Origin: Haladaptatus sp. ZSTT2
GTDB lineage: Archaea > Halobacteriota > Halobacteria > Halobacteriales > Halococcaceae
Length of the DNA stretch: 64,000 nt
Assembly (NCBI RefSeq): GCF_037081775.1
Contig: NZ_JBAMHQ010000001.1
Coordinates: 2,480,001-2,544,000 of the forward strand
Reading direction: 5' to 3'
The stretch's first letter is position 1. Each line of letters opens with the position of its first letter. The translations under genes and the position numbers were made by a program. Positions 54,043 through 62,458 of the stretch are shown here, piece after piece. A model generated the notes under the pieces. It saw only the letters and a list, made by a program, of their open reading frames with translations. It had not been told where the DNA came from and did no database searches.

Positions 54043-54115
54043 AGTCCCATGGTGTAGTGGCCAATCATAGCGGCCTTTGGAGCCGTTGACTCCGGTTCGA
54101 ATCCGGGTGGGACTA
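54043..54115 (+). tRNA. tRNA-Gln (anticodon UUG)
   Basis: A 73-base cloverleaf. The acceptor stem agtccca pairs with tgggact, followed by discriminator a. The anticodon stem gcggc/gccgt encloses the loop ctttgga, giving anticodon ttg, which reads CAA. The T arm ctccggttcgaatccggg has the standard ttcgaat loop. No intron is present and CCA is not encoded. The gene is preceded by a partial copy of its own 5' end. Confidence 0.93.
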
Positions 54116-54171
54116 CTTTTCCCGAAGCACAACCCTGAGCCGTTTCTGTGAGAAAAACTCCACCATTCACG

Positions 54172-54822
54172 TCACCGACTCAGGAAAATCCCCAAACTCA
54201 GCGTTATCAGGAGTAAGCCGCCAACGAGGCCGAAGAACACTTTGATGAGCGGGTAGCTCTCCTGCAGTTGTCCGACGTAGGCGTAGCCAAGGGCGGCGAT
54301 GACGACCGTGACGAAGGCGAGCACCATCCACGGTTCGAGGACGGGCCTCAGGGATGTGCGATTGCGAGTGTGTGCGACACGCGTGTACGGTCTACGGTGA
54401 AACGAGAGTCCTTGCAAACCGTATCGACTTGCTACGTTTCGTTGCTCTGCGATGCGTCGGACGTCTGCGTTTCCGTCGGAGATGTCCCACCAGTAGATGG
54501 CGATGTAGTTGAACTGCTTGCCGAGTGCCTTGAGCTGGAACTGAAAGGCCTTCATGCCGGAGGCGCGGGTGTCGCCGATGATTGCGATACCAGTCTCACC
54601 GTTTACCACCACGTCTGCAGAGAGGCTGCCGCGGCGGCGTTCGATGATATCTTGTTCCCAAATGGGTCGGTCGTCGGTGTTGAGACTCGCATCGAGGTAG
54701 TTGCTCAGTCGTTGCCCCAGCGTGTCGGTCTGTTGTGCACCCTCCGGATTCCAGCTATCCAGGAGGGTGCAGACGGCGTCAAACGTTTTCGCTGAACCTC
54801 CTGAACCGAGGTTATCGGCCAT
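54172..54822 (-). CDS. Membrane protein with N-terminal nuclease-like domain, unknown function
   Basis: A 216-residue protein. The N-terminal ~150 residues are soluble (LGQRLSNYLDASLNTDDRPIWEQDIIERRRGSLSADVVVNGETGIAIIGDTRASGMKAFQFQLKALGKQFNYIAIYWW). The order E ... D-V-V-V-N ... G-D-T-R resembles a degenerate PD-(D/E)xK fold with an incomplete catalytic motif, so activity is doubtful. Two transmembrane helices follow (MVLAFVTVVIAALGYAYVGQL, VFFGLVGGLLLITLSLGIFL). It overlaps the DUF7504-type gene by 11 bases, so it is part of a three-gene signalling operon. Confidence 0.6.
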   Translation of the reverse strand: MADNLGSGGSAKTFDAVCTLLDSWNPEGAQQTDTLGQRLSNYLDASLNTDDRPIWEQDIIERRRGSLSADVVVNGETGIAIIGDTRASGMKAFQFQLKALGKQFNYIAIYWWDISDGNADVRRIAEQRNVASRYGLQGLSFHRRPYTRVAHTRNRTSLRPVLEPWMVLAFVTVVIAALGYAYVGQLQESYPLIKVFFGLVGGLLLITLSLGIFLSR

Positions 54823-55414
54823 CGTTCGTGGTTCCAGTGGCTGACTTGAGCGGTTGAATCGATGGTGAGTCAGTTGCGTCGAACGTTACGCAGAAATCCA
54901 TCGGCTGTTGGAGGATTCGTCTCGTTTTCTGGTCAACGGTGTCAGAAATCACGTACAGTGCGGTTTTTTGGGTCGATGTGACACGCTTTGAGACCAGATA
55001 GAGGAGTCGATAAATCGATTGGGCGGGTTCGTGTTTGAGCAGCGCATTGATGTTCGTGATGTAGAGGATATCACAGCGTGGAGTCGCGTCGAGTGCTTCG
55101 AACAGTTGCTTCCCGAGTTCTGGAATGGGGATGTGTGTCGCAGGGTCGTTTGAGCCGTCGCCAGAAAACCCGATTTTGGTGAGTGGCAGGTTGAACGATG
55201 CGTCGGTGAGCTTTTCGGTGTAAAACGGCTGGTCACAGCTCGAAATGGCGATGCCAAGACCGCTGTTCGCGTCTTCTATATGGCTGTGAAAGTAGTCCCA
55301 ACTTTGGTCTGGTTCACCAACGACGAGGATGTTTGCTCGGGGGAGGCTCGACTCCTCGTGTGGAACCCCGCGCGCGTCTTGTGCGTTGTTCTCAGTGGGC
55401 GTAGAAGTAGTCAT
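54812..55414 (-). CDS. KaiC-like, DUF7504-type protein without Walker A
   Basis: A 200-residue protein resembling the small RecA/KaiC-like haloarchaeal proteins I recall as DUF7504. The first strand ANILVVGEPDQSWDYF has no GKT/S loop, so ATP hydrolysis is unlikely. The later strand is DILYITNINALLKHEP and the last VTFDATDSPSIQPL. Such proteins often accompany HalX regulators and histidine kinases. It overlaps the response regulator by ATGA. Confidence 0.65.
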   Translation of the reverse strand: MTTSTPTENNAQDARGVPHEESSLPRANILVVGEPDQSWDYFHSHIEDANSGLGIAISSCDQPFYTEKLTDASFNLPLTKIGFSGDGSNDPATHIPIPELGKQLFEALDATPRCDILYITNINALLKHEPAQSIYRLLYLVSKRVTSTQKTALYVISDTVDQKTRRILQQPMDFCVTFDATDSPSIQPLKSATGTTNDGR

Positions 55415-55980
55415 TCTCGAAGGATTGCAAAGACGTCATCGTTCGGAAGCTGATAGAGTGCGGCACCGGCTTGTTGGTCTAATCGCTCCCACTCTTGTTT
55501 GAGCGAGTGGTACACCTCACTATGTGCAAGCTCCGCACTAGATTTGTGCGTTTCAAGCAACGCCAGCTTTGAGCTGACGGAGAACAGCTGTTTGAGGCGG
55601 TCGTCGTACTCAGCGCGCGACAACATGCGATTGATGATGTTCTCGAGGTCGTCTTTTCCGACGGGTTTGACGAGATAGTCGTCGAACCCCATTTCGTAGA
55701 TATCGAAGTCTGGCTCTATCGCAGAGATGATGGCGACGGTGCAGTCGAATCCTTGGTCGCGAATCCAAGCGAGCACCTCGTCACCACCCATCTGTGGAAG
55801 ATTCCTATCAAGGAGAATAACATCGAAAGAGTCGTCGAGGATGTCGAGTGCTTCCCGACCCGTGTATGCAATTTCGATGTCGTATGTCGACCCTATCCAC
55901 TTGGCATAGAGCTCTGCAATATCTTTCTCGTCTTCCACGACCAAGACGCGATGCGTACTGGAACCGCTCGTATCGTTCAT
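55411..55980 (-). CDS. Response regulator with HalX domain
   Basis: A 189-residue protein. The receiver domain (residues ~10-120) has the phosphoacceptor Asp in DVILLDRNLPQMGG, preceded by the acid pair VLVVEDEKD, and the lysine in FDDYLVKPVGKDDL. The C-terminal ~65 residues (LENIINRMLSRAEYDDRLKQLFSVSSKLALLETHKSSAELAHSEVYHSLKQEWERL) form a HalX domain, a coiled-coil output typical of haloarchaea. A TATA-like ctattatag lies about 45 bases upstream. No kinase gene is in the window. Confidence 0.9.
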   Translation of the reverse strand: MNDTSGSSTHRVLVVEDEKDIAELYAKWIGSTYDIEIAYTGREALDILDDSFDVILLDRNLPQMGGDEVLAWIRDQGFDCTVAIISAIEPDFDIYEMGFDDYLVKPVGKDDLENIINRMLSRAEYDDRLKQLFSVSSKLALLETHKSSAELAHSEVYHSLKQEWERLDQQAGAALYQLPNDDVFAILRE

Positions 55981-56720
55981 GTCTTTCCCACCAACTATCA
56001 ATATGGTTACTGTTGGAACTATAATAGGTCACACGGATTTGACAAATGCGGATAGCATGATTTAAAACATTTTATGCCGACATTTCCCCGGCGATCCGCC
56101 CAGAGATTGGAGTGTGGCAGTCACAGTTCCTGATGAGTCGGCAAGTATATAATAATCAATCATTCACAATCTGGGGCGCGCGCAACACCCGACCGACAAA
56201 TTTTTGTGGCGAATATTGCCAGAAATGATTATCCAATTGATATTATTTTTCGTCAGTCTCACAGTGACACATCATGTCAGTGTTCATTCAATCCTGTGGT
56301 ATGAAAACCCTAAAAATCGGAGGTTATGACCTCTCTAAACGTGACTGGACGAGGAACCACTACAATTGTTGATAAGTGTGTGAAATCGTGATGGATTCGG
56401 ATAATTGCGGAATGTCCATAATCCGAAATCTAGGTTTTCGGGCCTTGAAACCGCTGAAAAACACAAATGCAACGGTGTGAAACGATTCGTTAAGCACTGC
56501 CTAGTATCACCTATGGAATCGGACATAATTCAGTCCATGTCAGGATATTACTGAAAGCATAACAATTTTATATCCTTGTAAGAATGTTAATATTAGAAAG
56601 TAATTCAAACGGGAATTACTATCACGAGAATAAGAAAATACGGCTTGGCGATAGCTACGGGTATAGTCCCAACTCCACTCATACGGCATTCGACGTGCCC
56701 GAGAATCGCTACAGAAAAAC
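55981..56720. other. 740-base AT-rich non-coding region
   Basis: No gene with believable start and codon use is present. It contains a strong TATA-like agtatataataatc (56144-56157) that has no matching CDS downstream, which could mark a small RNA. The segment 56260-56560 has lower GC than the flanks. A second TATA-like attttatatc at 56565-56574 probably serves the beta-helix gene, giving it an untranslated leader of about 120 bases. The palindrome at 56599-56620 lies in that leader. Confidence 0.4.
56599..56620. promoter_or_regulatory. Palindrome near the transcription start of the beta-helix gene
   Basis: agtaattc-aaacgg-gaattact is a perfect eight-base dyad with a six-base loop. It is centred 40 bases downstream of the TATA-like attttatatc at 56565-56574 and ~110 bases before the ATG. 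It could be an operator or a 5' UTR hairpin. Confidence 0.4.
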
Positions 56721-58292
56721 ATGGAACACTTCGACAACATCTCTCAATCGGCAGCACAGGACGACTCTACTTCGCACATCGGGCGACGCAAATTCATGGG
56801 CGCAGTTGGGGCAACTGCCGCGGGCGCAACACTGTTCTCTTCGCAGAACGCGAAAGCAGCGACCACGACCAGCATTGAAGACGGCTACAGTCGTGTCATC
56901 GACATCGTCGAGGACGCAGGGGCTGACAACACTGGCACGGAGTCAATCACGCCAATTCTCCGCAAGTACGCGGGCGATGATACGCTCATCAAGTTCCCAC
57001 CGGGCCGATACTACATGGACTCACAGTTCCGATTTACGGGCTTCCGGAACTTCGGGCTGGTTGGCGACGACGCCACGCTCGTCCCCGCGAACTACGACGA
57101 GTTCGACGGCCCGCAGTACCGTCTGTTCCGACTTGGCATCTACTACAACCCCGGCGTCGACCTCCGTGTCCAGGGGTTCACCGTTGACCTCACCGCAGAA
57201 CGCACCGGGATTCGCGCAATCGACGCGATGGTCGATGACGGCCTGTTCGTAGACGACATCACCATCGTTGGCCGCCACGACACGGGCACGTTCGGGCCAG
57301 CGCTGTTCTCGATTACGTCTCCAGACGGCAAGGGCATGGTCAAGCGCTTCCGCGCCAACGACGGTGGTGCGTGGGACGAAAACACGCCTGGCGACCTCTG
57401 GCGGGGGCCAACGGGCATCCTTTGCAGCCAGTACCACACGGGCCAAATCGAGTTCAAAAACTGCGAACTCGACGACTGGCCGGACAACGGCCTCTACGCG
57501 GTGACCAACGGTCGCGTCATCGTGAACGGTGGGCGCTACGCCAACAGCGAGGCAGCGAGCATCCGCCTCGGTGGCCACGACTGCATCGTCACGGGCGCAG
57601 AAGTCGTCGTCGACAAGCAGAACCCACAGAATCAGAACCAGCGGGGCATCCGGCTCGACGCAGGCCCCAACATGGCGGTCGTCGATACGACGATCCGATT
57701 GGAAAAACCCAACGGACACGCGCTCACCGTGATGAACGACTGTGAAAGCGCGTACCTCCGCGGCCTCGATATCTCTATCGGCGACGAAGTCTGCCACGGT
57801 ATTGTTGTCCAGTCGCAGGCCGGCCCAACCGAGATTGTTGACACGAACATCGACATCCAGCGCGGCGGCAACGCCATCCAAATCAACGGCACCGACGCGG
57901 GCAAAGTACACTGTGAGTACGTCGACATCACGGGTAACGCAGACGGCGACTCGTGGCGCCACGCTATTCGCTGCAACCGCAACGACTGCGAGTTTCGCGT
58001 CGTGAACGTCAACCAGCCGGGCGACTACTTCCGACGCGCACTCGTGCTCAACGGCGACAACGTGCTCGTCTACCGTGGCAAGCAGGCCGCAACCCACGTC
58101 CCAATCGTGGTCAACAGTGCGGGCGCATGGATCGAACGCATCGAAGCGGAGTCGTTCAGCGGGCGCGAAGGCATCAAGCTCAACAGCACGAGCTCTGACG
58201 TAACCATCAAGCGCAGCACCATCGCAAACGGCATCTGGGACAAGAGCACTGACGGACCGCGGATGTACGGCAACGAGTTCGAATTAAGTTAA
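56721..58292 (+). CDS. Tat-exported beta-helix (pectate-lyase-fold) surface protein
   Basis: A 523-residue protein. GRRKFMGAVGATAAGATLFSSQNAKAATTT at residues ~21-50 is a twin-arginine signal peptide with an AKA-A-like cleavage site. The mature part begins VIDIVEDAGADNTGTESITPILRKYAGDDTLIKFPPGRYYM, as in beta-helix enzymes and tailspike-like proteins, and continues with many repeats of short strands (VRVQGFTVDLTAERTGIRAID, DDWPDNGLYAVTNGRVIVNGGRYANSEAASIRLGGHDCIVTG, DTNIDIQRGGNAIQINGTDAGKVHCEYVDITG). A polysaccharide substrate is likely but not identifiable. It lies directly upstream of the repeat-bounded segment. Confidence 0.8.
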   Translation: MEHFDNISQSAAQDDSTSHIGRRKFMGAVGATAAGATLFSSQNAKAATTTSIEDGYSRVIDIVEDAGADNTGTESITPILRKYAGDDTLIKFPPGRYYMDSQFRFTGFRNFGLVGDDATLVPANYDEFDGPQYRLFRLGIYYNPGVDLRVQGFTVDLTAERTGIRAIDAMVDDGLFVDDITIVGRHDTGTFGPALFSITSPDGKGMVKRFRANDGGAWDENTPGDLWRGPTGILCSQYHTGQIEFKNCELDDWPDNGLYAVTNGRVIVNGGRYANSEAASIRLGGHDCIVTGAEVVVDKQNPQNQNQRGIRLDAGPNMAVVDTTIRLEKPNGHALTVMNDCESAYLRGLDISIGDEVCHGIVVQSQAGPTEIVDTNIDIQRGGNAIQINGTDAGKVHCEYVDITGNADGDSWRHAIRCNRNDCEFRVVNVNQPGDYFRRALVLNGDNVLVYRGKQAATHVPIVVNSAGAWIERIEAESFSGREGIKLNSTSSDVTIKRSTIANGIWDKSTDGPRMYGNEFELS

Positions 58293-58322
58293 TTAACTCT
58301 TCTGGCCGTTTCGGTGTCCACG

Positions 58323-58419
58323 ATTGGCCCACACACCTTTCTGTGTCTGGCGGTGTGTGCCTGTATGGTCGAACACGACCTCGGTCAGGCGACCATCGTG
58401 TATGACAGTCCCGACGGCA
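58323..58419 (+). repeat. Left copy of a 97-base direct repeat
   Basis: Matches 60291-60387 at 93 of 97 positions. It covers the leader and first 18 codons of the small gene at 60333, including an eight-base stem (cacacacc ... ggtgtgtg) just before the ATG. The identity stops abruptly at gacggca; from there the left copy runs into unrelated sequence. Confidence 0.9.
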
Positions 58420-58451
58420 ATTTGATTAACAGGTTGATAACACCTTGTTAG
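58365..58451 (+). pseudogene. Truncated copy of the small haloarchaeal gene at 60333
   Basis: ATG 58365 starts MVEHDLGQATIVYDSPDGN, which equals the first 18 codons of the intact gene (MVENDLGQATIVYDSPDGT) with one substitution. It then runs into LINRLITPC and a TAG at 58449-58451. The break coincides with the end of the 97-base repeat, so this is a fragment left by the rearrangement. Confidence 0.75.
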
Positions 58452-58511
58452 GTCATTCCTTCTTTAATTCGTCTCATATTTACAAAGTCGTCAGAATCCG
58501 ACTGGGAACCA

Positions 58512-59483
58512 ATGAGTGGCGTGGTTACAATTAGTATCGAAGTAGAACTTGGATGGGGATTCCACGATATTGGCGGTCCAAAGCGGCTGAGCGATCGATG
58601 TGAAGAGGAACGAAAGTATCTCCAAAACCTTCTCCTCAAATGCGACGAGGTGGGCATTCCTATCTCGTTCGACATCGTCGGTCACCTCACCCTCAGTGAA
58701 TGTGATGGGACACACGAGGGTCACTACCCAGCAGACTGGTTTGCGAACGATCCTGGTACGAACCTTGAGACAAATCCAGACTTTTACGCGCCGGATATGA
58801 TAGCAGCCATCGAGGCGTCGAAAGTAAGTCACGAACTCTGTACGCACACCTTCTCGCATGTTCTTTGCGACCGAATGGGAGACGACTGTGTCAACGACGA
58901 TATCGCTCACGCACAACGAATTCACGAGACTCAATTCGGGAAGAAATCGGTCTCATTCGTTCCCCCTCGACACTTCGAACCGTCAGCGACCGTTCTACGA
59001 GAAAACGGAATCGAAATCGTTCGAAAATCGGTTCATACCGATACGAGTAACAAAGTGACCCGCTTTTTCGAGCTGCTAGTCTCTCCCCCGTTGCTCGATG
59101 AGCCACAGATAGTAGACGGGATTGTCGAAACGTACTGTACGAGCTACCAGTCGCTCACTGCAAGTTCACTTCCAATAGGTCAGCGAGAAAGCCATGCGGT
59201 GTTCAAACCAATCCCGCGCAGCCTCAGACAGCAGCTTCACCTCCGCCGTATGGAAACCGAGCTTAAAGCTGTCGTCGAGAAGGATGGCTATGCTCACTTC
59301 TGGTGTCACCTCTGGGATCTCTCGAACGAACACCAGTGGGGAGTTGTTGAGCCGTTCCTTGACATGCTTGCGACGTACCGTGATATGGAGGGGCTACAGG
59401 TGTTGACAATGTCTGAACTGAATAACCACGTCAGGACGCAACGCGCAACGGGCGTCGAGCTCGTGGAGGGAATCAATGGCTGA
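58512..59483 (+). CDS. Polysaccharide deacetylase-like (NodB-fold) protein
   Basis: A 323-residue protein. The start MSGVVTISIEVELGWGFHDIGG corresponds to the first strand of NodB-type esterases, although the usual TFDD pair is ISIEVE, so one metal-ligand Asp is Glu. A later ASKVSHELCTHTFSHVLCDRMG contains the HxxxH-type metal pair. The remainder (FVPPRHFEPSATVLRENGIEIVRKS and HFWCHLWDLSNEHQWG) fits the family. It would remove acetyl or related groups from a glycan or sugar. GC content is lower than its neighbours. It overlaps the formyltransferase gene by eight bases and lies within the repeat-bounded module. Confidence 0.78.
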   Translation: MSGVVTISIEVELGWGFHDIGGPKRLSDRCEEERKYLQNLLLKCDEVGIPISFDIVGHLTLSECDGTHEGHYPADWFANDPGTNLETNPDFYAPDMIAAIEASKVSHELCTHTFSHVLCDRMGDDCVNDDIAHAQRIHETQFGKKSVSFVPPRHFEPSATVLRENGIEIVRKSVHTDTSNKVTRFFELLVSPPLLDEPQIVDGIVETYCTSYQSLTASSLPIGQRESHAVFKPIPRSLRQQLHLRRMETELKAVVEKDGYAHFWCHLWDLSNEHQWGVVEPFLDMLATYRDMEGLQVLTMSELNNHVRTQRATGVELVEGING

Positions 59484-60276
59484 ACCGCTTCGTCTCTGTC
59501 TACTCACAGAATCGTCGATGAGTCGGTGGCAACTCGAAGCGGTCAGAAAATTGCTCAACGAACAAGATGTCGTCATCAGTCTGGTCGTGGTTCACCACCC
59601 ACGCAGCCGCACGCGTAAAGAAAAGCTCGATCGCGCAATTCAGCTTCGTGAGTGGACACTCGTCGCTGGCGGACTTGCCCTCATGCGCAAGCTACGAGGA
59701 ACCCATCCATTGACCGAATCGATTCCCCTCCACGAAATCTCGGAACTCAATGGTATCGAACAGGTCGCGTGTACGCCTGACATCATCAATGGCTGGAAGT
59801 ACCAAATACAACCAGAAATCGCTGACGAAGTTGCAGCGAAGGCTGACATCGCGCTTCTGTGCGGGTTCGGATTCATCATAGGTTCGATTCTAACTGCCCC
59901 AAAACACGGCGTATTGAGCTTCCATCACGGCGACTTACGAAAGTACCGAGGGCAGCCCATGGGCTTCTGGGAGTATCTCCGCGGCGAAGAGACAGCAGGC
60001 GTAACGCTCCAGAGACTTACCGAAAAACTCGATGGTGGAGAAATCATCTATCTGAAAGAAGTTGACATCAGTAACGCCCGGTATCTGCGCGAAGTGAAAA
60101 CCCTCCTCCTTGCAGAGTCGGTTAATATGCTCTCTGAGGGTGTGCGACGAGTTCGTGACGAATCGTTCACACCGGAGACGCCAACCGAACTCGGACAGAT
60201 ATATCGCATCCCGAAAGGCAAGCCAGTCCTAAAGTACCTCGCTAAATCCATCTTGGCAGCGGCTCGGCTGTCCTGA
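59476..60276 (+). CDS. Formyltransferase-family protein (methionyl-tRNA formyltransferase fold)
   Basis: A 266-residue protein with the formyltransferase N-terminal fold. LRLCLLTESSMSRWQLEAVRKLL is the first strand and IALLCGFGFIIGSILTAPKHGVLSFHHGDLRKYRGQPMGFWEYLRGEETAGVTLQRLTEKLDGGEIIYLKEV is the catalytic core. The normal N-x-H-x-S-L-L-P-x-Y-R-G motif is here FHHGDLRKYRGQPMGFW, so the catalytic His and YRG are kept while the preceding part differs. No C-terminal tRNA-binding domain is evident. A sugar N-formyltransferase is therefore more likely than a tRNA enzyme. The gene is lower in GC than surrounding ones. Confidence 0.78.
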   Translation: MAEPLRLCLLTESSMSRWQLEAVRKLLNEQDVVISLVVVHHPRSRTRKEKLDRAIQLREWTLVAGGLALMRKLRGTHPLTESIPLHEISELNGIEQVACTPDIINGWKYQIQPEIADEVAAKADIALLCGFGFIIGSILTAPKHGVLSFHHGDLRKYRGQPMGFWEYLRGEETAGVTLQRLTEKLDGGEIIYLKEVDISNARYLREVKTLLLAESVNMLSEGVRRVRDESFTPETPTELGQIYRIPKGKPVLKYLAKSILAAARLS

Positions 60277-60290
60277 TTTTCGCGAACATA

Positions 60291-60387
60291 ATTGGCCCAC
60301 ACACCTTTCTGTGTCTGGGGGTGTGTGCCTGTATGGTTGAAAACGACCTCGGTCAGGCGACCATCGTGTATGACAGCCCCGACGGCA
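60291..60387 (+). repeat. Right copy of the 97-base direct repeat
   Basis: The second copy of the repeat described at 58323-58419; the four differences are single-base substitutions. It holds the promoter, leader and start of the intact gene 60333-60686. The repeat pair, 1,968 bases apart, bounds the deacetylase-formyltransferase pair exactly. Confidence 0.9.
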
Positions 60388-60686
60388 CCATCGAACAGAC
60401 GGTCGATAACGAGCATGTCGCGTATTTTCAGGACCACTGGATCGTCAAAACCGGCGAAGACGACCACGGCAACGACACCATCCGACGCATTCCGCACCAG
60501 CGTGTCCACTACGTCGAACGGAACGTAGAGCAGTTCGAAAACGAAGTTGAGACGCTGAAAGACCGCGTCCAGTCGTTCACCGACGACCTTAGAACGCGAA
60601 TCATGGGCGACGAACAGTCACAGTCTCAAGAACAGACCCAAGAGTCGATTCACGTCGATATCGAAGACGAAGACCGGTCGCAGTAA
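60333..60686 (+). CDS. Small haloarchaeal protein, unknown function
   Basis: A 117-residue acidic protein, MVENDLGQATIVYDSPDGTI ... EQTVDNEHVAYFQDHWIVKTGEDDHGNDTIRRIPHQRVHYVERNVEQFENEVETLKDRVQSF. The first ~70 residues form a small beta domain and the remainder a coiled coil with a polar, glutamine-rich tail. It is intact, while the first 18 codons recur as a fragment at 58365. I do not know a function. The start ATG sits five bases after a stem (cacacacc/ggtgtgtg). Confidence 0.75.
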   Translation: MVENDLGQATIVYDSPDGTIEQTVDNEHVAYFQDHWIVKTGEDDHGNDTIRRIPHQRVHYVERNVEQFENEVETLKDRVQSFTDDLRTRIMGDEQSQSQEQTQESIHVDIEDEDRSQ

Positions 60687-60700
60687 CCCCAGCGCATTGT

Positions 60701-62263
60701 TTACTCCTCGCGCGCGAACACCGGATACGTGCGAGCGAGCGTCGGTCTGTCCGCTCGGTCGAGCGCTACACCCGCATTTTGAATCGCGCGCACGACATCT
60801 TCGATGTCAGTGAGCGTCGTCCGGTGTGAGCAAATCGAGAAGCGCAACACGGTGCGGCCATGGATGGCGCTCGTGCCGAAAAACGCGAGACCGCTTTCTT
60901 GGATTGCGTCGGTTATTTTCTGATTTAACGTATCGAGATACGAGTCGAGGGCGTCTTGTTGCTCGGCCGTGAGCGACTCGATTGTGCCGAGGTCTGCAGG
61001 CACGTACCGGAACGAATAGATGTAGAGGTTCGGCTCTTGAATCGCCGCTAAGTCGGGTTCCCGTCGCACGAGCGTGTCGAGATGGTGGGCACACTCGATG
61101 TTCTGGCGAAGTAGATCGCGGTAGCCCTGTACGCCGTAGTGTTTGAGGCTCATCCAGACTTTGAGCGCCCGGAAGCCGCGTGACATCTGTGGGCCGTGTT
61201 GGTAGAAGTCGTGGCCTTCGTACGCAGTGGGGAGCGTGCCGTGGAGATACGGCGCGTCCATGTCGAACGACCGGCGGAGGCGGTCTGGCTCGCGCACGAG
61301 AATCGCGCCACACTCGTAGGGGACGTAGAGCCACTTGTGCGGGTCGAGCGTTATCGAGTCTGCGCGGTCTAATCCCTCGTACTTGGTGGCGAATTCGGGA
61401 AGCATCGCGCCGACTGCGCCACACGCGCCGTCAGCGTGGAACCACAGGCCGCGTTCGTCGCAGATGCGCGCGATGTCTGGAAGTGGGTCGATGGCGCTCA
61501 CGTTAATTGAGCCGACCTGTCCGATGACACAGAAGGGGATATCGCCGTTTTCGATGTCTGCGTCGAGCAGTGTTTCGAGTGCGTCCGTGTCCATCGTCAA
61601 ATCGTCGTGACTCGGGACGAGACGCACGGCGTCGCGGCCGAGGTTGAGCATATCGGCCACGCGGAAGATGGAGGAGTGACCCTCGTGGTCGGCCATGTAG
61701 AGCGTATAGCGCCCGGTTCGGGTGGGCGATTGGAGACCCCCTGCGGTGGTGTCGTACTCGGCGGTGTTCCTGAGCGCGGTGAGAATGGCGACGAAGTTCG
61801 CCATCGTCCCGCCGCTGGTCAAGAGGCCGCCACAGTCCGGGTCGTACCCAATAAGCTCTGCGAGCCATGAGAGGACCGTGCGCTCTACTTCCGTCGCGGC
61901 GGGTGCGGGCTTCCACCCGCCGGTGTTCATATTCACCGCCGCAGCGAGCGCCTCTGCGAGCGTTCCCATCATGGTTCCAGACCCCATCACATAGCCGAAG
62001 TAGCGCGGCGAGGTGTTGTGGGTCGCGTTCGGGAGGATTTTTGTCTCCCACTCGCGGAGAATCGTCTCCGGGTTCTGCCCTCGTTCCGGAAGCGGTTCGT
62101 CGAACAGTGCTTCGACCGTCTGCTCTGACTTTGCTGGGAAGACGGGACGAGTCTCAATGTCCTCGTAGAACGCCGTAAGCATGTCCACGGTTTGGTACCC
62201 AAGCTTGCGGAACTCTGCGGGTGTCAGGTCGTGGGTCGAAAATTGGTGGCCGCGCGATGCCAT
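60701..62263 (-). CDS. PLP-dependent group II decarboxylase
   Basis: A 520-residue enzyme. TNMNTGGWKPAPAATEVERTVLSWLAELIGY and CGGLLTSGGTMANFVAILTAL hold the cofactor-phosphate site, and the Schiff-base lysine is K310 in ITLDPHKWLYVPYECGAILVR. It belongs to the aromatic-amino-acid/glutamate/tyrosine decarboxylase family; haloarchaeal members may act on tyrosine, aspartate or glutamate. ATG 62263 begins MASRGHQFSTHDLTPAEFRKL, agreeing with family starts; a much longer in-frame extension upstream is not plausible. Confidence 0.9.
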   Translation of the reverse strand: MASRGHQFSTHDLTPAEFRKLGYQTVDMLTAFYEDIETRPVFPAKSEQTVEALFDEPLPERGQNPETILREWETKILPNATHNTSPRYFGYVMGSGTMMGTLAEALAAAVNMNTGGWKPAPAATEVERTVLSWLAELIGYDPDCGGLLTSGGTMANFVAILTALRNTAEYDTTAGGLQSPTRTGRYTLYMADHEGHSSIFRVADMLNLGRDAVRLVPSHDDLTMDTDALETLLDADIENGDIPFCVIGQVGSINVSAIDPLPDIARICDERGLWFHADGACGAVGAMLPEFATKYEGLDRADSITLDPHKWLYVPYECGAILVREPDRLRRSFDMDAPYLHGTLPTAYEGHDFYQHGPQMSRGFRALKVWMSLKHYGVQGYRDLLRQNIECAHHLDTLVRREPDLAAIQEPNLYIYSFRYVPADLGTIESLTAEQQDALDSYLDTLNQKITDAIQESGLAFFGTSAIHGRTVLRFSICSHRTTLTDIEDVVRAIQNAGVALDRADRPTLARTYPVFAREE

Positions 62264-62458
62264 AGCTGAGGTTGGCTGTGCGATTCGATAAGTAAGCACC
62301 GCGACACTCTTGAAATAGCGATACACCTGCTGCTGGGGTGTTCTCGCGGCGCTGAGTCTCCCGATTTCGTGGCTACCGCAGAGGGCGTGCGGGTTGTGTG
62401 TCATGCTAGCACCGGTTAAGAAAGCATTAAGCCACTCCCCTTGCTTGTCCAGCCACGA
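62264..62458. promoter_or_regulatory. Divergent promoter region of the decarboxylase and zinc-finger genes
   Basis: 195 bases without a gene. The AT-rich block near 62290-62296 (gataagta) could be the TATA region of the decarboxylase on the minus strand, and gcattaagcc (62423-62432) that of the zinc-finger gene, about 30 bases before its ATG. I see no other sites. Confidence 0.35.

Follow-up and report, generated by a model that had tools for sequence, protein, structure and literature searches.

How did two genes of lower GC content come to lie between two copies of the start of a third gene in a haloarchaeal chromosome? The arrangement occurs in the 64-kb stretch of Haladaptatus DNA analyzed here, hereafter the window, and its features are collected in Table 1. 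Across the genus, the site is filled in two species and empty in a third; since the two filled lineages split, the pair has been inherited vertically and has been under purifying selection. The sections below describe the repeats, the comparison of filled and empty sites, the genes involved, and the explanations that may account for the insertion.

Two copies of a gene start bound the gene pair

The two direct repeats are 97 nt long, differ at four positions (93 of 97 identical), and have a spacing of 1968; together they form the sole direct-repeat family of at least 40 nt in the window (minimum length 40, seed 14). The right copy starts 42 bp upstream of the ATG of an intact gene, referred to here as the resident gene, and extends through its codon 18. 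The left copy retains the promoter, the ATG, and 18 codons, and parts from the resident gene after the first base of codon 19. This direct-repeat comparison agrees with the original prediction, which had described the copies as the 5' end of a small haloarchaeal gene, the left one being broken off where the repeat ends. When the resident gene and its upstream region were used as a query, only two places in the genome matched, and a third copy was absent genome-wide. The truncated reading frame that starts in the left copy is not expected, from its sequence, to have a function.

Table 1. Features of the repeat-bounded locus, in window coordinates
Feature	Coordinates	Strand	Remarks
Left neighbor, right-handed beta-helix protein, predicted Tat-exported	56721..58292	+	Pfam Beta_helix 4.8e-05, just below the gathering score
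Left repeat copy	58323..58419	+	Remnant; holds the resident promoter and codons 1-18
Truncated frame that begins in the left copy	58365..58451	+	28 codons in G000, 21 in G017
Insert DNA, left copy to deacetylase gene	58420..58511	+	16% divergence, G000 versus G017
Deacetylase-type gene (NodB/CE4-like fold), first of the insert	58512..59483	+	Pfam Polysacc_deac_1 5.6e-05
Formyltransferase-type gene, second of the insert	59476..60276	+	Pfam Formyl_trans_N 8.8e-13
Right repeat copy	60291..60387	+	Start of the intact resident gene (promoter, codons 1-18)
Resident gene, intact	60333..60686	+	117-aa haloarchaeal protein; small six-stranded beta domain and C-terminal helix
Right neighbor, PLP-dependent decarboxylase	60701..62263	-	Same place in G000, G017, and G016

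Filled and empty sites in the genus

Three Haladaptatus genomes were compared: that of the window (G000), in which the window spans C1:2480001-2544000, that of a sister species (G017), and G016, which was matched to Haladaptatus sp. QDMS2 and contains a 3,150-bp stretch 100% identical to plasmid NZ_CP119793.1 of that organism. The G017 site is filled, with the left copy, the deacetylase, the formyltransferase, the right copy, and the intact resident gene following one another with the same junctions and neighbors as in G000. The G016 site is empty: one intact resident gene, with a single copy of the repeat, comes immediately after the beta-helix gene, as the original prediction had anticipated for a strain without the module. 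Window positions 56534-58420 and 60293-62264 align to adjoining G016 sequence and overlap on this single copy, which itself aligns with both G000 repeat copies, and no homologue of the insert genes was found anywhere in the G016 genome. The flanks are ordered alike in all three genomes, with the beta-helix gene, which has orthologues in both G017 and G016, on the left, and the decarboxylase, an 81-aa gene, and a peroxiredoxin-type gene on the right.

Beyond these genomes, both repeats together with the pair at the same place in distant haloarchaea were searched for and not found. The arrangement is absent from 14 other loci of the family and from 80 named haloarchaeal loci, but the beta-helix flank does not occur at any locus outside the genus. 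At the 80 named loci, the start of the resident gene is single throughout, and no close homologue of the pair adjoins it; a recurrent hotspot at the resident gene is rejected on the same count (0 of 80).

A second variable block lies beside the insert. Downstream of tRNA-Gln (54043-54116), three genes at 54172-55983, two of them unknown and one a HalX response regulator, are absent from the same place in G016, and the gene adjoining the tRNA is largely missing in G017. Several degenerate tRNA 3'-end fragments, spaced by about 106-114 bp, are located downstream of tRNA-Gln in G016 (L032:11084-11431) and resemble the remains of repeated tandem duplication or of successive integrations at the tRNA. 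The non-coding stretch upstream of the beta-helix gene (about 56534-56710) is nearly identical to G017 and 89% identical to G016, a level that exceeds that of most neighboring genes; it is possibly a long regulatory leader or an RNA.

Age, selection, and composition of the insert

Between G000 and G017, the synonymous divergence (dS) of the two insert genes is 0.51 and 0.58, and that of the resident, beta-helix, decarboxylase, 81-aa, and peroxiredoxin-type genes is 0.45-0.62 (0.45, 0.55, and 0.62 for the first three). Because the dS of the insert equals that of its flanks, the insert was in place before the G000/G017 split, with no later transfer between the two species. Both insert proteins are 89% identical in amino acid sequence to their G017 counterparts, and each gene has a dN/dS of about 0.1, which indicates that both are in use and under purifying selection.

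The two genes between the repeats had been described as lower in GC, and their third codon positions confirm this, with a GC3 of 0.57 for each versus 0.72-0.78 for the beta-helix, decarboxylase, peroxiredoxin, and resident genes. The deacetylase GC3 is higher in G017 (0.66), as expected for foreign DNA adapting. The insertion had also been called dateable. This holds only in the form of an interval, before the G000/G017 split and probably after the split of G016, because the repeats appear partly homogenized.

The deacetylase-type and formyltransferase-type pair

The first protein of the insert is a predicted member of the NodB/CE4 polysaccharide deacetylase superfamily: its Polysacc_deac_1 score of 23.5 bits lies just above the gathering cut-off of 23.1, and the paired metal-histidine motif HxxxH, present as HTFSH, is conserved in the alignment of the protein with its homologues. 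A low-confidence structure model (mean pLDDT 56) has polysaccharide deacetylases as its best PDB matches and gives weak support to this assignment. The first motif of the family, SxExELGWG, is conserved with a Glu where distant Natrialbaceae homologues have an Asp (SLDAELGWG), and because of this replacement the predicted deacetylase activity is not assured. A gene for such a distant deacetylase, about 29% identical, is found on the opposite strand about 2 kb upstream of the resident-gene homologue in 20 of the 80 loci (L118, L123, L126, L129, and 16 other Natrialbaceae-type loci); it probably represents a separate subfamily.

The second protein has Fmt and ArnA as PDB sequence relatives. N10-formyl-THF-dependent formyltransferases use an Asn-His-Asp catalytic triad. 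In the alignment of haloarchaeal homologues, the His and Asp of this triad are present. In nearly all of the aligned sequences, Ser stands in for Asn, giving Ser-x-His (SFHHGD) in place of the expected Asn-x-His.

The two genes overlap by 8 bases, stop codon included. A TATA-like stretch, catatttacaaag, identical in G000 and G017, lies about 25-37 bp upstream of the deacetylase ATG, at about 58475-58487, and is probably the insert's own promoter. As far as family names can indicate, the pair probably changes the acyl substituent of an amino sugar by taking off an acetyl or a formyl group and attaching a formyl group. By analogy with ArnA and ArnD, an alternative chemistry would be the installation and removal of a formyl group.

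Among 392 genomes searched, the deacetylase and formyltransferase genes occur side by side, on the same strand and in the same order, in at least 21 further genomes of this archaeal order, with roughly 36-52% identity to the insert genes. Three relatives were checked for gene context, and the neighbors of the pair include transporters, genes of acyl-CoA and NAD synthesis, GDPD, TFIIB, an epimerase, and an LPG_synthase_TM membrane protein; two of the pairs are beside unrelated metabolic genes and one is a few kb from the epimerase. Since its contexts differ where checked, the pair moves as a unit. Glycosyltransferase and nucleotide-sugar genes are absent beside the window pair, and no glycan operon is evident beside the pair in the three relatives. 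The surface-glycan role suggested in the original prediction is a conjecture, since the surroundings of the pair in the relatives that were checked are mostly unrelated genes of housekeeping or metabolism. The other pair loci show no comparable flanking repeats, only matches of at most 43 nt at chance-level scores, which assigns the 97-bp repeat to the target and not to the cassette; on the same grounds, we rejected the idea that the repeats are the ends of a transposon or att sites that came with the cassette.

The resident gene and its promoter

The resident gene has widespread haloarchaeal orthologues with a conserved promoter and core. Despite this wide spread, its product has no match in Pfam or NCBIfam and no clear one in the PDB, and its structure model, in which the beta domain has a pLDDT of about 95, gave no PDB fold match at E <=0.001. 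The promoters of 32 orthologues were aligned, restricted to named haloarchaeal sequences with a placeable start codon. Within 40 bp upstream of the ATG they share a GGCCACAG-type block, and their A/T content peaks at -27/-28, reaching 94% at -27. In leaderless transcription, the TATA box is positioned at about -27/-28 relative to the start codon. Scans for sigma-70 promoters and terminators stayed at chance level and are not meaningful for an archaeon.

On its left side, the repeat ends where this conserved promoter ends, so the position of that edge may be owed to selection acting on the promoter of the resident gene. On its right side, the repeat ends after the first base of codon 19, which is probably where the break really occurred. 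The stop codon of the formyltransferase gene lies 14 bp upstream of the right copy, which implies that the original duplication was not much longer than the present repeat. It could be supposed that the duplicated promoter and gene start were kept by selection, the left copy driving the pair and the right copy the resident gene, and that the repeats would allow harmless, reversible excision and regain without a recombinase; we give this idea little credence.

Divergence between the two copies

Over the 97 columns of the repeat, the left and right copies differ at 4 positions in G000 and 11 in G017, and between the species the left copies differ at 10 and the right copies at 9. In none of the 97 columns do the two left copies share one base and the two right copies another. 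At two columns (22 and 54), the copies instead match within each genome and differ between genomes, and both columns are derived in G017 relative to G016. In simulations in which the copies had been separate since before the split and exchanged nothing, this pattern together with only 4 differences in G000 had a probability of at most 0.0006. From the two columns and the low left-right distance in G000, we infer gene conversion between the repeats; gene conversion between genome copies is well documented in polyploid haloarchaea (PMC12186497). Either the duplication would have taken place just before the G000/G017 split, with exchange after it, or exchange would have wiped out older differences. 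Between the species, the left copy has diverged by 10%, the spacer next to it by 16%, and two longer stretches of intergenic DNA by about 18-20%; constraint on the left copy may contribute to the pattern. The divergence of the repeats cannot simply date such scars: copies within a genome are more alike than their age should allow.

These counts also bear on a diverged donor allele arriving with the cassette by homology-facilitated illegitimate recombination. It predicted shared left-versus-right differences, of which none was seen, and was rejected, with the qualification that gene conversion could erase such differences.

How the pair may have entered the chromosome

We consider it likely that the pair is a cassette captured in the ancestor of G000 and G017 together with a duplication of its target, with illegitimate or break-repair joining favored, the copies later converted, and apparently no dedicated recombinase involved. 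A horizontally acquired two-gene cassette would have been joined to codon 19 of the resident gene in that ancestor, and the resident promoter and first 18 codons would have been duplicated simultaneously, leaving the whole gene on the right and a truncated copy on the left. Such a scar would be expected if foreign DNA was captured at a break in codon 19 and about 100 bp of the target was copied before joining, through a repair-type process or illegitimate recombination; a circle that bore this short segment could also have been integrated, as a less likely way of joining. The copies would afterwards have exchanged sequence by gene conversion. The joining mechanism is read from the scar, because no donor locus came to light in which the cassette adjoins a homologue of the resident gene. 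The insertion or duplication event itself, put forward in the original prediction, stands on the empty G016 site and the filled G017 site; the circular piece that it named would be one candidate route beside break-repair or illegitimate joining, and the loss by recombination that it envisaged would be a possibility for the present day.

Integration of a small circle of the Campbell type is possible but unlikely. In this explanation, a circle carrying the cassette and a 5' segment of the resident gene would have entered the chromosome by a single crossover, and could pop out again. Direct repeats with an intact gene on one side and a truncated copy on the other have the exact pop-in geometry, homologous recombination routinely gives pop-in/pop-out in Haloferax (PMC12186497), and a circle from a near relative would also leave no left-versus-right sites at the G000/G017 split. 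However, a circle bearing only about 97 bp of the resident gene itself needs an earlier event at the same place. Moreover, the resident protein occurs in no viral contig, no plasmid record holds the insert with its flanks, plasmids carry only distant deacetylase homologues (below 40% identity), and phages carry only partial, weak formyltransferase matches. On these grounds, viral carriage and a plasmid origin of the insert were both rejected.

Loss from G016 has to be considered because repeat-bounded indels in haloarchaea are often deletions (PMC3119063). The filled site would then be ancestral in the genus, and G016 would have lost the cassette cleanly through recombination between the copies, which would leave an identical empty site. 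Most of the Haloquadratum repeat-bounded indels whose direction can be assigned are deletions, a few of them with repeats of 139 and 734 bp (PMC3119063). However, a duplication that preceded the G016 split predicts old left-right differences shared by both species, and zero exist, an outcome with a chance of 0.003-0.015 in simulations that added half a tip branch of extra time and allowed no conversion. This argument is weakened because gene conversion could mask old differences. Neither G016 nor the other resident-gene loci of the family showed any trace of the cassette. Insertion after the G016 split thus appears more likely than deletion in G016, because shared left-right differences are lacking and the pair is absent at the other resident-gene loci, and we regard the loss as improbable.

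Site-specific integration, in which the 97 bp would be the attachment site of a tyrosine recombinase element since decayed to two cargo genes, would explain why the long direct repeats restore the target gene, as att sites typically do, but is very improbable: the insert consists of its two genes only, neither of them a recombinase by open reading frames and Pfam, with no integrase or transposase; the insert sits in the start of a protein-coding gene, not at a tRNA 3' end; and neither comparable flanking repeats at the other pair loci checked nor another duplicated start in the 80 loci was found.

Comparison with known systems

The nearest biochemical parallel to such a pair lies in the lipid A aminoarabinose pathway, where the ArnA formyltransferase and the NodB-fold ArnD deformylase act on one amino sugar. 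The ArnA formyltransferase domain is a Formyl_trans_N enzyme related in sequence to the insert formyltransferase, with a similarity that is only weak, and, unlike ArnA and ArnD, the insert pair has no Arn pathway neighbors. As a widely distributed and uncharacterized combination, the deacetylase-formyltransferase pair merits biochemical work.

As genomic events, the indels of Haloquadratum walsbyi and Halobacterium resemble the present case in their haloarchaeal hosts, in a strain-specific segment that lies between direct repeats where the relative, lacking the segment, has one copy, and in requiring no recombinase (PMC3119063). Their repeats are mostly shorter than 20 bp; apart from one mobile element, only four exceed 20 bp, at 22, 43, 139, and 734 bp (PMC3119063). 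In contrast to those short repeats and predominant deletions, the repeat here is 97 bp long and derived from a host gene, and insertion is favored. Bacterial variable segments attributed to homology-facilitated illegitimate recombination are likewise small, non-mobile gene blocks that a genome either has or lacks at a given locus; repeats flank 10-18% of these blocks, and 66-94% of those repeats are shorter than 30 bp (PMC2884548). Unlike those short repeats, the one described here comprises a promoter and gene start, and the resident gene is preserved. Insertion with target duplication is an already known kind of event, an instance of ordinary horizontal gene gain, and the two filled sites and one empty site offer an unusually clean view of a non-mobile gene pair entering a haloarchaeal chromosome while leaving its target intact.
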